Part shown: positions 3,877 through 23,344 of the stretch, piece by piece
Layout: every line of letters starts with the position of its first letter
How positions within the stretch are numbered: position 1 is the stretch's first letter
Notes under the pieces: model-generated
The model's database searches: none
Told to the model about the DNA's origin: nothing
What the model saw: only the letters and a program-made list of their open reading frames with translations
Program-made: the position numbers and the translations under genes
Assembly: GCA_025358725.1 (NCBI GenBank)
Contig: JANYIT010000133.1
Location: 1-34,091 of the forward strand
Length of the DNA: 34,091 bases
Reading direction: 5' to 3'
Source: Chamaesiphon sp. GL140_3_metabinner_129_sub
GTDB lineage: Bacteria > Cyanobacteriota > Cyanobacteriia > Cyanobacteriales > Chamaesiphonaceae

Positions 3877-3882
3877 AATTAG

Positions 3883-3922
3883 TTGGGAGTTAGGAGTTGG
3901 GAGATGAGAATTAAACTCCCAA
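3883..3922. repeat. Degenerate short tandem repeat with inverted arms upstream of fabD
   Basis: GTTGGGAGTTAGGAGTTGGG is a run of near-identical TTGGGAG/TTAGGAG units. It is followed by AAACTCCCAATT, which can pair with the first unit as a hairpin. It fills the 51-base gap between the AAA/M41 gene and fabD. Such low-complexity runs are common in cyanobacterial gene gaps, and no regulatory role can be claimed. Confidence 0.5.
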
Positions 3923-3927
3923 TTTGA

Positions 3928-5808
3928 TTAAAGTTTTACGTTTGAATCTGATTTTGGCAAAAATTGATCGTATTCTGGAATTTTCAGGAAGCCTTCAGTT
4001 TCAACTATTGCTGGTATACCATATTTTATCCCGATCGCGGCAACTTCTGCCGCTGCTAAATTACCAGTTGCAGCTAATCGCACGGATAGTTCTTGTAGTA
4101 GTGACTTGTGGGAAGATAATAATTCTCTGGTTTCCGATACCAGTCGAGTAATCATTTTTTCGATGTCGATGTCTGTAGTTTTCATCTCCATGCTATGCCC
4201 ATATTCGAGGGTATAGTTGGCTTGAAATTCATCATCGAAACCATAGCGGCGAATATAATCAATTGTGATTTTAGTAGCTTGTTCTCGATCGTGAATTCGT
4301 CCAACTGATGCTAATTTATCTCCAAAAATAATCTCTTCGGCAAGTCCACCTGCGAGATAAATTTTGACTTGGCGAATTAAGTTCTCCTTGGTTTCATAAA
4401 TCTGGTGTGGAAAAGTAAACCCACCAGCATAACTACTAGCTAACTTGGATTTTAGTTGCAATGGTGCTAGCCCGAATAACACCATGTAAGCCACTGCATG
4501 GCCGGATTCATGTACGCTAATATTAGCGATTGTCGCTTCTAAATTACTCTCGCGAATTTTATCAATTCGTCCGACAAAGAGAATTTCTTCTAATTGATAT
4601 CCAATTTGAGCAGTGATTTGGGACTTACCAAAATTATAGGCAATATCGATATACTTCTCGCTGCGTAATAGTGCTGTGAATAAAAACTTCGATAGATTAG
4701 TTTCGAGAATATCAATCAAACTAGAAAATACTGGACGGACCCCTTGAACTGGAAATACTCCATTGCGGTAGACTAATTCGTGGATTGATTGATCGATCTT
4801 AACATTCACGTCAAATTTAGCTTTAGTCGTGGTAATAACTCGATCGATCTCATGTGCGATTAATTTTTCAAAATCACATTTTTTTAGACTAGCATAAATG
4901 AGGTGAATATTTCCAAATCTGGCAACTTGTTCGGGACGGAAACTTTTACTGAGGGCATTTTTGATATCCACCATCGTAATCTTCTTGGTGAATGCATGAA
5001 AGATATCTGCATCGACATCCGATTCAGCAATTTGAGTTGCCATTGCAAAAGCTTCATCCAGATTACCACTAATAATTAGTAACGTCTTGGAATGATCGAT
5101 CGGTTCGTAAACTTTTTTCTTCTGTTTAGCTTGACGAATCTGTTCAATCATTTGCATCTGCGACATATCAGCGATATCCGATATCTCGCCATCTAATTGC
5201 AGCATTGTCTTGAGATTCTGCGCTTCGTAAAAACCCATCGTCGGATTTTCATCTACATCATCTTCGCCACGCTCCTTGCGCTTCTTGATATTTTTCTGTT
5301 GATATAAATAGTCCTGAATATAATAATCTAAATCATCTTTTACTCGTTTAGATAATTTACCATCACTCAACAGTTCCCAGAAGTCAGTAAACTTCGAGGA
5401 TTGAACTGGACTACCATCAGGATTAATCGTATTAAAACGTTGAATTTCATCGAACAAAACTATTGCTGGTTTGCCATCGCTAATACTATTTCGACTTAGC
5501 GCAGATCCTACCGAACTATCCCAAGAACCTCCCTCTGTGTGGCTAAGTTCGATTTCAACAAACCGATCCTGAAAATTGAGACATTTAACCAGTCGCCGAA
5601 CCAGATCGGTTTTACCTACTCCTGTCATCCCCCACAAATTGACGATGATTGGACGGCTCAAAATCTCTGGCATCAAATACCAAATCTGAATATAGTTGAG
5701 CAAATCGTCGATCGTTTCATCGATACCAACAAAGTGAGTTTTAAGTTCGATTCGCGTAGTTTCTAATATCTGCTTCCGCGCTTCAATCTGCTGAAAATCA
5801 ACTTCCAT
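3928..5808 (-). CDS. AAA+ ATPase (Clp/HslU-like) fused to FtsH-type M41 zinc metalloprotease
   Basis: A 626-residue protein that appears to carry unfoldase and protease in one chain. The first half is AAA+: Walker A GMTGVGKT (60-67), Walker B IVLFDE (116-121), sensor 1 LLIISGN (243-249), a probable arginine finger near Arg297 in RPEQVARFGNI, and a sensor-2-like GVRP (356-359). The small domain (about 300-392) resembles ClpX/ClpB D2, not FtsH. A charged insert of about 90 residues (151-240) separates Walker B from sensor 1. The second half is peptidase M41: HESGH zinc site (433-437), GGLAEEIIFG, and HDREQAT with Asp507 as likely third zinc ligand. No membrane helix is visible, unlike FtsH. It probably degrades proteins in the cytosol; substrates are unknown. 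It sits between fabH and fabD, same strand. I recall no characterised protein with this architecture. Confidence 0.85.
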   Translation of the reverse strand: MEVDFQQIEARKQILETTRIELKTHFVGIDETIDDLLNYIQIWYLMPEILSRPIIVNLWGMTGVGKTDLVRRLVKCLNFQDRFVEIELSHTEGGSWDSSVGSALSRNSISDGKPAIVLFDEIQRFNTINPDGSPVQSSKFTDFWELLSDGKLSKRVKDDLDYYIQDYLYQQKNIKKRKERGEDDVDENPTMGFYEAQNLKTMLQLDGEISDIADMSQMQMIEQIRQAKQKKKVYEPIDHSKTLLIISGNLDEAFAMATQIAESDVDADIFHAFTKKITMVDIKNALSKSFRPEQVARFGNIHLIYASLKKCDFEKLIAHEIDRVITTTKAKFDVNVKIDQSIHELVYRNGVFPVQGVRPVFSSLIDILETNLSKFLFTALLRSEKYIDIAYNFGKSQITAQIGYQLEEILFVGRIDKIRESNLEATIANISVHESGHAVAYMVLFGLAPLQLKSKLASSYAGGFTFPHQIYETKENLIRQVKIYLAGGLAEEIIFGDKLASVGRIHDREQATKITIDYIRRYGFDDEFQANYTLEYGHSMEMKTTDIDIEKMITRLVSETRELLSSHKSLLQELSVRLAATGNLAAAEVAAIGIKYGIPAIVETEGFLKIPEYDQFLPKSDSNVKL

Positions 5809-5811
5809 AGT

Positions 5812-5846
5812 TTAGGTATTAGGTATTAGGTGTTAGGCTTTAGGTT
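5812..5846. repeat. Five tandem TTAGGNN heptamers
   Basis: The units are TTAGGTA, TTAGGTA, TTAGGTG, TTAGGCT and TTAGGTT in direct succession. They lie in the 111-base gap between fabH and the AAA/M41 gene, ending four bases before its start codon as read on the minus strand. They resemble the heptanucleotide short tandem repeats known from cyanobacterial genomes. Confidence 0.75.
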
Positions 5847-6924: not shown

Positions 6925-6973
6925 TTAGAGTTGGGGATAGGTGATGGAATAGTGAGGTAGCGGAGGCTATGGA

Positions 6974-7083
6974 GGGTACCCATAAAGGGCACCCCTACAG
7001 GCTAATTGTGTAGGGGTGCCCCTGTCTTGTCGTTTTTTTATTCAGGGGGAACCCCCGAATAAAAACGCCGCTTATGGGTACCC
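6974..7083. repeat. 110-bp nested palindromic element (MITE-like) between plsX and fabH
   Basis: The outer arms GGGTACCCATAA (6974-6985) and TTATGGGTACCC (7072-7083) are perfect 12-bp inverted repeats. Inside, GGGCACCCCTACA (6987-6999) pairs perfectly with TGTAGGGGTGCCC (7009-7021). A third hairpin, TTTTTATTC..GGGGG with CCCCC..GAATAAAAA, spans 7035-7065. The DNA can fold as a cruciform with three stems. A decayed relative lies at 11291-11341. No reading frame is present, so it would have to be moved in trans if it is mobile. Confidence 0.75.
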
Positions 7084-12333: not shown

Positions 12334-12909
12334 ATGAACAATTACCCTGAAGGCTGCCTGAGAGTCGGCCAAATTGCCCCAGATTTTACGGCGACTGCGG
12401 TTGTCGATCGCCAGTTTCAGAAGATTCAATTGTCTAGATGCCGCAAATATGTGGTGCTATTTTTCTATCCGCTAGATTTTACCTTTGTTTGCCCTACTGA
12501 AATTATTGCTTTTAGCGATCGCTATGCAGAATTTGCAGCTCTCAATACTGAAATCTTGGCAATATCTGTTGATAGTGAATTTGCTCACTTAGCCTGGATT
12601 GAAACCGATCGCAAAATGGGTGGTTTAGGTGATATTAATTATCCCTTAATTTCCGATCTCAAAAAAGAGATTAGTATGGCTTATAATGTTTTAGATCCAG
12701 ATTTAGGTGCTGCACTACGCGGTTTGTTTATCATCGATCGATCTGGTATCATTCAATACGCTACTATCAATAATCTATCATTTGGTCGCAGTGTCGATGA
12801 AACCCTGCGCGTGCTGCAAGCAATTCAACACGTTCAAGCCCATCCTGATCAAGTTTGTCCGGTAGATTGGCAACCAGGGGGGAAAACAATTAAGCCAGTT
12901 GGTAGTTGA
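12334..12909 (+). CDS. Typical 2-Cys peroxiredoxin (AhpC/Prx1 type)
   Basis: Reduces hydrogen peroxide and alkyl hydroperoxides with thioredoxin as electron donor. Length 191 residues. The peroxidatic cysteine is Cys53 in [13 protein letters not shown], and the resolving cysteine is Cys175 in [10 protein letters not shown]. Both are present, so it is a typical 2-Cys enzyme. [14 protein letters not shown] and [14 protein letters not shown] are also family motifs. A GGLGD segment lies in the usual floppy-peroxiredoxin position, but the YF motif after the resolving cysteine is not evident. The gene stands alone behind a possible operator and is followed by a second thioredoxin-fold gene on the same strand. 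Confidence 0.93.
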
Positions 12910-12939
12910 AAGTTGAAAGTAAATAGGTAGGATTCGTAG

Positions 12940-12997
12940 GGGCGGGTTTATACTAGAAAATTTCGCTATCACTAAAAATGTTTGTACAAACCCGCCC
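12940..12997. repeat. Inverted repeat with GGGCGGGTTT arms
   Basis: GGGCGGGTTTATAC (12940-12953) pairs with GTACAAACCCGCCC (12984-12997) with one mismatch. It lies between the two peroxiredoxin-type genes, about 30 bases after the first stop. This GGGCGGGTTT hairpin is a familiar scattered repeat in cyanobacterial genomes. It could end the first transcript. A looser relative may lie at 30568-30638. Confidence 0.6.
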
Positions 12998-13137
12998 AAC
13001 CCAACTAGAGAGGCTGGTATGTTACGCTTCTCGTTGGCGTAACCCCTGTGACAGCAGAACAATAGTACACCTTACAATTTAGTAAATTATTTTGCAGCAT
13101 CTCCCTGTCAACAAAATCTCTGATACAGGAAATAATT

Positions 13138-13683
13138 ATGGCTTACGCTAATACTAATAAGTTTAAAGGGTTAATAAATCGGCGGTTCTTTCAGAACTTG
13201 TTGCCGATTCCGGCGGAGAATGAATTAGAGTTGGGATCGATCGCGCCAGAAATTCAGATTCATGATATTCGCAATGATAGACAGATTAAACTATCCGACT
13301 ATCGCGGCATTCAACCTGTAATTTTGGATTTTACCCGCATTTTTACCGAACAGCAATATTGCCCATTTTGCTATCCACATATTCAGGAAATAAACGAACG
13401 CTATGCAGAATTTGTCGATCGAGGAGTAGAGGTACTCATGATTAGTAGTACTGACGCACAACAGAGTAAAAACGTAGTGCGTGACTTGGATTTAAAAATG
13501 CCCTTATTGAGCGATCCTAGTTGTGCAAGGTTTCGTCGCTACCATGTTGGACAAGCTCTAGGGGCACCTCTTCCAGCTCAGTTCATTGTGGATAAAGATG
13601 GAAGAATTATCTTCAAACATTTGTTTTCTTTCTTCCATCACAATGCTGAGATTGATACATTACTATCATCAACTATCAGCTAA
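13138..13683 (+). CDS. Peroxiredoxin-like AhpC/TSA-family protein with CPFC motif
   Basis: A 181-residue thioredoxin-fold protein. Two cysteines lie in QYCPFCYPHIQEINERY (Cys75 and Cys78), a CxxC arrangement typical of a cyanobacterial peroxiredoxin-like group and different from the TxxC site of true peroxiredoxins. VLMISSTDAQQSKNVV, PLLSDPSCARFRRYHVGQ and QFIVDKDGRIIFKH are AhpC/TSA-like. It probably acts as a thiol oxidoreductase in redox defence; the substrate is unknown. AGGAAATAATTATG gives a good ribosome binding site eight bases before the start. The 228-base gap from the preceding peroxiredoxin holds an inverted repeat, so the two genes may be transcribed separately. Confidence 0.85.
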   Translation: MAYANTNKFKGLINRRFFQNLLPIPAENELELGSIAPEIQIHDIRNDRQIKLSDYRGIQPVILDFTRIFTEQQYCPFCYPHIQEINERYAEFVDRGVEVLMISSTDAQQSKNVVRDLDLKMPLLSDPSCARFRRYHVGQALGAPLPAQFIVDKDGRIIFKHLFSFFHHNAEIDTLLSSTIS

Positions 13684-18963: not shown

Positions 18964-20619
18964 TTAAATCCGTTGCCAAAGTTGGATTGTACCATCAGCA
19001 CCACCAATAGCGACAGTATTTCCTGCCGAATCGATCGCCACAGACATGACCGAACGACCCGGATCGCCTTTGAGAATACTTCTGGCTCGATCTCGGAACC
19101 GGAGATCTTCTCCTCTGTACCATACTTTCGCTTTACCATCGACACTACCCGTAATCAAATACTGACCATCGGGGCTGAAGACGCAAGCATTGATTTGTCC
19201 AGCATGGGCTTTAATCGTCTGAGCTAGCTCAATTTGCGGTGGTTGACCATTTTCGATGTTTCCTAGTTGCCACAAGACGATATAGCCATTAACTGTACCT
19301 GCGGCGATCGTTCGTGAATCAGGGCTGATCGCTAAGGAGCCAATACAATTTTTATTATTGATCGACTCGACAATCATTGCCCCCGAACTCAACGACCAGA
19401 TCTTGACAGTTCCATCATCGCCAGTACTAACCAAAAATTTACCATCAGTACTCAAAGCGATTGCGGCAACTGGTTCGAGCGCGGGAATCGTTTTGGTCAC
19501 GGCACCATCAGGCAGACTCCACAGCACGATCGTTTGGTCAAAACTACCACTGACCAAAGTTTTGCTGTCAGGACTAATTGCCAGAGATCTGACTGAAGCT
19601 TGATGCTGGGTCAAATTTTGAATGAGCGAACCAGTCGCTAAATTCCACAATTTGATCGTATCATCCCAACTACCACTAGCTAGTAGCTTGCCATCAGGAC
19701 TTACCGCTAGTGCAAATACACCTTTGAGGTGATCTACCAGGGTATGAATTGTAGTGCCCGTCTCTAGTTGCCACAATTTAATCGTCTTATCAAAACTGCC
19801 ACTTACGAGCTTGCCACCATCAGGAGTGAAACTCAGGCATCGCACCCAATCGTCGTGAGCACTAATTGTCTGCCACAGATTCCAGGTCGGTTTAGACCAC
19901 AGATCGCCACTCAATTCTCCAGAAATGAGATTTTCAGGCATCAAGTTGTTGGACATCAAGTCCTCAGAAATCATATCTAGCAAGGGTGTAATATCAATTT
20001 CTGGTTCATCATCGCCGAAACTAAAGACGCTACTAGCTGTCGATTGAGTCAACTCGGTTGAACCGAGACCTAACTGCTGAGACATCTGCATCAGATGGCA
20101 TTCGAGATACTCTACTCGATCGGTTAGTGCGTTACTCTCCAGTAGATCGATGACATCTTTGAGACTTCCTTCAACCCCAGTGACATGAGCTTGCATCGAC
20201 TGCATTAGCTGCTGGTGCAGGTCGAATTTCTGTGCTAAGGCAATCACATCTTGTCGATTCTCTAACGGCAAAGCTGTGCCAATGGCCGCAGTTAACACAG
20301 CGGGTTCGGATTTTTTCTGAACAGCCATCGTCTGTTTGACTAGAGCTGTCGCAAAACTCCGCGCTTGGGCGATTTCCTGCTGAAGCACTTCACCTTGTTG
20401 TTGAAGTTCTCGATCGAGCTTGCGTTCTAAAGATCGATCGTGGATGTGGAGGTTTTTCGTCAATCGCCATCGATTGATTGCGCTGAGTACCAGGCTAATC
20501 AGAATTGGCACTAGTGCATAAATCCACTGCGAGGATGCGGCTGCGGCAATTGCCCCTACTACTGCGACAGCGATGGCGAGATATTCACTCAGGTCCAACC
20601 AATGGAGAGAATTTGACAT
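18964..20619 (-). CDS. Membrane-anchored seven-bladed WD40 protein
   Basis: A 551-residue protein of unknown function. The N-terminus has two hydrophobic stretches (about 11-30 and 33-46), then a charged helical region (55-200) likely to form a coiled coil. The linker is acidic, and seven WD40 repeats follow from about residue 245 to the end, for example LVSGSFDKTIKLWQ, LASGSWDDTIKLWN and AIGGADGTIQLWQ. The last blade ends at the C-terminus, so the propeller closes without an added domain. The propeller is probably a cytoplasmic protein-binding platform tethered to a membrane. The upstream neighbours on its strand are unrelated, and proximity to the polysaccharide genes is suggestive only. 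Confidence 0.88.
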   Translation of the reverse strand: MSNSLHWLDLSEYLAIAVAVVGAIAAAASSQWIYALVPILISLVLSAINRWRLTKNLHIHDRSLERKLDRELQQQGEVLQQEIAQARSFATALVKQTMAVQKKSEPAVLTAAIGTALPLENRQDVIALAQKFDLHQQLMQSMQAHVTGVEGSLKDVIDLLESNALTDRVEYLECHLMQMSQQLGLGSTELTQSTASSVFSFGDDEPEIDITPLLDMISEDLMSNNLMPENLISGELSGDLWSKPTWNLWQTISAHDDWVRCLSFTPDGGKLVSGSFDKTIKLWQLETGTTIHTLVDHLKGVFALAVSPDGKLLASGSWDDTIKLWNLATGSLIQNLTQHQASVRSLAISPDSKTLVSGSFDQTIVLWSLPDGAVTKTIPALEPVAAIALSTDGKFLVSTGDDGTVKIWSLSSGAMIVESINNKNCIGSLAISPDSRTIAAGTVNGYIVLWQLGNIENGQPPQIELAQTIKAHAGQINACVFSPDGQYLITGSVDGKAKVWYRGEDLRFRDRARSILKGDPGRSVMSVAIDSAGNTVAIGGADGTIQLWQRI

Positions 20620-22708: not shown

Positions 22709-23344
22709 TTACTTATTTGGTTGAGGAGTCATCCGCAGATAAGGCTTCAGTTCGGTAATTCCTTTGGGAAATTTCACCTTAGCATCTGCAGTAGAGATAG
22801 TTGGTACGACTACGCAGTCACCACCATCAACCCAGTTTGCTGGAGTTGCAACACTATAGTTATCGGTGAGTTGGAGGGAGTCGATTACCCGCAAGATCTC
22901 ATCAAAGTTGCGTCCAGTGCTTGGCGGGTAAGTAATCGTCAGGCGCAACTTTTTGCTAGGATCGATCACAAATACCGATCGAACAGTCACCATTGCATTA
23001 GCATTGGGGTGAATCATGTCGTAGAGATCGGATACTTTTTTATCTGGATCGGCAATAATTGGATAATTTAGTGCAGAACCTTGAGTTTCGAGAATATCAC
23101 CAACCCAACCCTTGTGAGATTCTACATCATCAACACTCAAGGCAATCGGTTTAACGTTGCGCTTGTCAAATTCTGGTTTTAATTTAGCGACTTCGCCAAG
23201 CTCTGTCGTACAAACTGGCGTAAAATCTTTGGGATGGGAGAATAGAACCACCCAGCTAGTTCCAGCCCATTCAAAAAAATCGATCTCACCATCGGTGGTG
23301 GCTTGTGTGAAGTTGGGTACGATATCCCCTAGTCTTAATTGCAT
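22709..23344 (-). CDS. 1-Cys peroxiredoxin (Prx6 type)
   Basis: A thiol peroxidase of 211 residues. The only peroxidatic cysteine is Cys45 in SHPKDFTPVCTTELG, the Prx6 signature. The long C-terminal extension with PPSTGRNFDEILRVIDSLQ and the motif TPANWVDGGDCVVVP is typical of Prx6. Cys near residue 181 (GGDCVV) lies in the extension and is not a normal resolving cysteine. It reduces hydrogen peroxide and lipid peroxides using a low-molecular thiol or glutaredoxin-type donor. It stands alone on the minus strand. Three peroxiredoxin-type genes in one window fits an oxygenic phototroph. Confidence 0.94.
   Translation of the reverse strand: MQLRLGDIVPNFTQATTDGEIDFFEWAGTSWVVLFSHPKDFTPVCTTELGEVAKLKPEFDKRNVKPIALSVDDVESHKGWVGDILETQGSALNYPIIADPDKKVSDLYDMIHPNANAMVTVRSVFVIDPSKKLRLTITYPPSTGRNFDEILRVIDSLQLTDNYSVATPANWVDGGDCVVVPTISTADAKVKFPKGITELKPYLRMTPQPNK

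Follow-up and report, generated by a model that had tools for sequence, protein, structure and literature searches.

The gene at positions 3928-5808 of the window (the whole 34,091-nucleotide stretch of Chamaesiphon DNA that was analysed) encodes a protein of 626 amino acids in which an AAA+ module resembling the second ATPase (D2) of ClpA, ClpB and ClpC is joined in one chain to an M41 zinc peptidase domain. Sequence comparison suggests that the product is probably a soluble, hexameric, ATP-dependent zinc metalloprotease, in which a motor of the Clp D2 type would feed an M41 ring. The new part is the domain pairing, which lies within the known AAA+ proteases. A sequence-only reading of this DNA had proposed a Clp-type AAA+ module linked to an M41 peptidase in one chain, and the pairing has been borne out by Pfam and NCBIfam matches, by phylogeny and by orthologues.

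Domain architecture

The gene and the features assigned within it, with the basis of each assignment in brackets, are as follows.

3928..5808, minus strand: whole gene, 626 aa, predicted one-chain protease of Clp-type AAA+ plus M41 (ORF, Pfam and NCBIfam matches, orthologues)
4594..5781, minus strand: Clp D2-like AAA+ module, core plus C-terminal small domain, residues ~10-405 (family profiles, alignment, tree, model)
5608..5631, minus strand: Walker A, GMTGVGKT, residues 60-67 (alignment)
5521..5523, minus strand: W96, conserved aromatic close to where Clp proteins have the pore-1 loop (alignment)
5446..5451, minus strand: Walker B, D120 and E121 (alignment)
5095..5346, minus strand: insert of ~85 residues, ~155-238, at the pore-2-loop position (alignment, selection, model)
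5062..5064, minus strand: sensor 1, N249 (alignment)
4918..4920, minus strand: arginine finger R297, in RPEQVARFGN (alignment)
4735..4737, minus strand: sensor 2, R358, in GVRP (alignment)
4009..4569, minus strand: M41 zinc peptidase domain, residues ~414-600 (Pfam, alignment)
4498..4512, minus strand: zinc site HESGH, residues 433-437 (alignment)
4288..4290, minus strand: predicted third zinc ligand D507, in HDREQAT (alignment)

The open reading frame begins with ATG, and its translation contains all four motifs to which attention had been drawn from the sequence (RPEQVARFGNI, GVRP, HESGH and HDREQAT). When the window copy was compared with Pfam, Peptidase_M41 (PF01434) was matched at residues 429-590 (E 9.7e-14; 52.1 bits, cut-off 29.9) and AAA at residues 58-130 (E 3.3e-5, above cut-off), whereas the two Clp-type models that the sequence-only reading had singled out, AAA_2 (23.9 bits, cut-off 27) and ClpB_D2-small (14.9 bits, cut-off 21.9), fell short in this copy, yet were matched across the family, each in 10 of 11 aligned rows with best E values of 2.4e-9 and 5.2e-5, respectively. 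Peptidase_M41 was matched in eight of the 11 rows, the others being partial. Matches to NCBIfam models in the window copy, namely the C-terminal half of FtsH over residues 428-585 and the D2 part of ClpB over residues 237-393, were both far below cut-off; the FtsH equivalog TIGR01241 scored 46.2 bits against a cut-off of 600 and matched the C-terminal part only. Among the Pfam and NCBIfam matches there was no curated family model spanning the whole chain. No membrane helix was detected in the 626 residues, where the highest 19-residue hydropathy is 1.57 compared with 2.3 for both transmembrane helices of Escherichia coli FtsH, which agrees with the earlier suggestion that a membrane anchor is missing.

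In an alignment of the motor half of the family with ClpB, ClpA, ClpX, HslU, Lon and FtsH, residues K66, D120/E121, N249, R297 and R358 coincide with the catalytic positions of Clp D2, in register with ClpB D2. Phylogenetically, the module groups with the D2 modules of ClpA, ClpB and ClpC (support 97/96.9) and not with FtsH AAA domains; constraining it to FtsH lowers the likelihood (AU p 0.0499), as does constraining it to ClpX/HslU (AU p 0.0487). Given the long branches, a Clp D2 placement over FtsH or ClpX/HslU is favoured by these data but not beyond doubt. The tree and the structure matches described below do not sustain two labels attached to the motor beforehand: 'HslU-like' gives way to the D2 modules of ClpA, ClpB and ClpC as the closest relatives, and the small domain, described as ClpX-like, is better called Clp D2-like.

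The motor departs from Clp proteins around its pore. The GYVG pore-1 motif is absent from the protein sequence and the pore-1 region is shorter than in Clp proteins; an aromatic residue at position 96 is conserved across the family, being W in all members except one (G285), where it is Y. Walker A and Walker B are ~52 residues apart, and the ~85 extra residues, rich in charged residues and glutamine, sit after Walker B and before sensor 1, where pore-loop 2 of Clp proteins lies. The insert is helical in the predicted structure, with moderate confidence.

The HExxH site and Asp ligand of the peptidase half occupy the same alignment columns as in 25 FtsH sequences taken from viral contigs. Every family copy that covers H433, E434, H437 and D507 has these four residues unchanged, some members having HEAGH. 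Alignment with Clp D2 and FtsH thus upholds the earlier claim that the catalytic residues are retained. The PRGRALG stretch that follows the HExxH helix in FtsH is replaced. As judged from the tree, the M41 domain is no recent copy of a cyanobacterial FtsH, since it is very divergent and sits on a long stem branch outside the FtsH sequences compared. The host genome contains three ordinary M41 matches besides the fused protein.

An AlphaFold2 model of the chain (mean pLDDT 71, pTM 0.52) was built from an alignment that combined family members with Clp D2 and FtsH sequences, and its fold matches therefore serve as a consistency check and not as independent proof; an earlier model from six near-identical rows (pLDDT 41) was not used. 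Residues 3-405 of the model match the second modules of Skd3, ClpC, ClpA and ClpB (Z 20-22), Clp rows being present in the alignment, and FtsH structures head the Foldseek list for the whole chain, FtsH rows likewise being present. How the two halves sit relative to each other is uncertain, the rmsd against FtsH chains being ~12-19 angstrom.

Orthologues and selection

The same chain is found in 13 cyanobacterial genomes from four families, at 62-92% identity, the carriers comprising six of nine Chamaesiphon genomes and seven genomes in three other orders. A scan of close relatives yielded the five further Chamaesiphon copies (87-92% identity), and a profile built from the Chamaesiphon copies and applied to 390 genomes belonging to the class detected the two-part protein in the seven genomes, which belong to three further families. 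With this profile, complete family members score ~1000 bits and ordinary FtsH or Clp proteins at most 44 bits. Searches at the level of the order found the gene in 6/391 genomes of the window's own order, in Chamaesiphon only, and in 3/42, 3/6 and 1/29 genomes of the three other orders. The possibility that the join is an assembly artefact, raised with the original proposal, has been ruled out because the same two-part protein recurs in independent genomes, on separate contigs of the six Chamaesiphon genomes and in the other orders.

Nine of the 13 copies are free of frameshifts to their end, one of these missing its start at a contig edge, and another copy is a contig-edge fragment. The remaining three carry a single frameshift each, in a homopolymer run, and all belong to lineages other than Chamaesiphon (L069 near 7430, L070 near 7420 and L071 near 3505), with breaks near residues 312, 467 and 480 within the runs TTTTT, CCCCC and AAAA. 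Since the breaks sit at different places, each in a one-base run, a programmed frameshift has been ruled out and sequencing error or decay is indicated; homopolymer sites are typical of the former, and these lineages may be able to do without the gene or be losing it.

Selection was estimated as dN/dS by simple counting between Chamaesiphon copies, synonymous sites being near saturation in most pairs, and gave values of ~0.03 for the motor (residues 1-405), 0.01-0.03 for the insert and 0.04-0.08 for the M41 domain. Within Chamaesiphon, purifying selection is strong on both halves, which is what a functional enzyme of two parts would be expected to show, and the insert is as strongly conserved there as the remaining protein.

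Proposed mode of action and alternatives

In the mechanism proposed here, six chains would form a ring whose Clp D2-type AAA+ modules grip and unfold a protein substrate via the pore aromatic W96. The substrate would then be threaded along the axial channel, passing the pore-2 insert peculiar to the family, into the ring of M41 peptidase domains at the C-terminal end; there zinc would be held by H433, H437 and D507, with E434 as general base. The action would be like that of FtsH, but cytoplasmic and with a Clp-derived motor. Hexamer formation, ATP hydrolysis, threading, zinc binding, proteolysis and the cytosolic location are all features that we infer. A role in general or regulatory protein turnover would be a guess. 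The main reserve concerns the missing GYVG motif, because of which, together with the shorter pore-1 region, threading is not assured.

These departures, with the large insert at the pore-2 position and the replaced PRGRALG stretch, would also fit an AAA+ half that serves as a regulatory or assembly switch, ATP assembling or gating an M41 ring that cleaves exposed loops or short peptides but does not unfold proteins processively. However, every residue for ATP hydrolysis is kept and the conserved aromatic lies near the pore-1 place, and we consider such a switch rather unlikely. The peptidase half might instead be catalytically dead, the protein acting as a chaperone or ATPase in the manner of the plant FtsHi proteins, for which the long M41 branch and the somewhat higher dN/dS of M41 relative to the AAA half could be cited. 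Inactive proteins of the FtsHi type are not expected to keep HExxH and the Asp ligand, whereas here both are invariant in all covering copies from several lineages, making a dead peptidase very improbable.

It could further be argued that the protein is a divergent ordinary FtsH that lacks its membrane anchor and owes its Clp likeness to convergence or long-branch attraction, given that its domain order equals that of FtsH, that the stem branches are long in both trees and that the AU test against the FtsH grouping is marginal (p 0.0499). The small domain and sensor 2 are nevertheless matched by the ClpB/ClpA D2 models, the protein has a sensor 2 of the GxRP type, the FRPE..R box and a small domain of the Clp type, and the FtsH AAA region scores almost nothing against the module in profile comparison, so that this origin seems highly unlikely.

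Known systems and genomic setting

In the literature, two ATP-dependent proteases, Lon and FtsH, are credited with a motor and a peptidase on the same chain, while motors of the Clp type pair with peptidases that are separate proteins (PMC6722904). As in FtsH, an AAA+ motor here precedes an M41 zinc peptidase in a single chain, with HExxH and an Asp as third ligand. FtsH, however, has its own classic AAA subtype where a Clp D2-like motor is found here, and is described as membrane anchored (PMC9020784), whereas the present protein has no membrane helix and reaches 46 bits against the cut-off of 600 on the FtsH family model. Walker A and B, sensor 1, the FRPE..R arginine finger, GxRP and the small domain are all in register with the D2 modules of ClpA, ClpB and ClpC (and Skd3), but the protein has a single module without an N domain or GYVG, carries the ~85-aa insert before sensor 1 and has its peptidase fused at the C-terminus, Clp proteins having a separate ClpP or none. 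HslU and ClpX are likewise single-module ATPases of ATP-dependent proteases, although their peptidases (HslV and ClpP) are separate and the tree does not unite them with this module; moreover, the HslU insert (I domain) separates Walker A from Walker B, unlike the insert of this protein, which follows Walker B. Lon, too, is a soluble single chain that is both ATPase and protease, but its peptidase is a Ser-Lys enzyme and not an M41 zinc peptidase.

No description of a Clp-type AAA+ module paired with M41 was found in the searchable literature, which omits most subscription journals, and the passages of the FtsH review (PMC9020784) matched by term search contain no soluble variant with a Clp motor. 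On balance we lean towards regarding the protein as an independent type of one-chain AAA+ protease, the third after Lon and FtsH. It would be a Clp D2-M41 enzyme of the cytosol whose pore-2 insert acts as gate or substrate selector, and it would have reached a few lineages of cyanobacteria sporadically, probably through gene transfer. The covalent joining of a Clp D2 motor to M41 would mean that parts of two kinds of protease are exchangeable; as a naturally soluble M41 protease the protein would lend itself to structural work, and it would allow a test of whether motor or peptidase sets how symmetric and how processive such machines are.

In the six Chamaesiphon carriers the gene adjoins fabD, and it lies between fabH and fabD wherever the contig extends far enough. 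Two Chamaesiphon genomes without the gene at this locus (G006 and G007) have fabH followed directly by fabD, with gaps of 185 and 43 bases, stop codon included. The neighbours in other lineages, annotated by eye, include asnS, tpiA with ttcA, a Tex-like gene, coaX and glycolate oxidase genes; they vary between lineages and give no pointer to a substrate. The G+C content of the gene is 0.39, compared with 0.46-0.49 for its neighbours, and this low value, the differing neighbours and the patchy distribution together suggest gain by transfer and frequent loss.

Plasmid or phage origin was considered and rejected: tblastn matched only one half or the other, the six plasmid matches inspected were FtsH-type proteins, the viral contigs held no relative of the family and PHROGs gave half-matches only. 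Membership of a known defence family was also rejected, the PADLOC DolB match (1.1e-7) covering only residues 11-127, the shared start of the ATPase.

Heptamer tandem repeats border the gene in the window (AGTTGGG x3.3 at 3881-3903 and TTAGGTA x4.9 at 5812-5845), and similar short repeats flank some, not all, of the Chamaesiphon orthologues. The fabH-plsX intergenic region (window 6970-7080) contains repeated motifs resembling GTAGGGGTGCCC and TATGGGTACCC that look, by eye, like an inverted repeat, and in L035 a GAATAAAAACGCCGC element resembling these intergenic motifs adjoins the gene. Elsewhere in the window, three genes of the AhpC/TSA peroxiredoxin type occur within ~11 kb (12334-13683 and 22709-23344), and a WD40 beta-propeller protein of 551 aa is encoded at 18964-20619, beside sugar-nucleotide genes.
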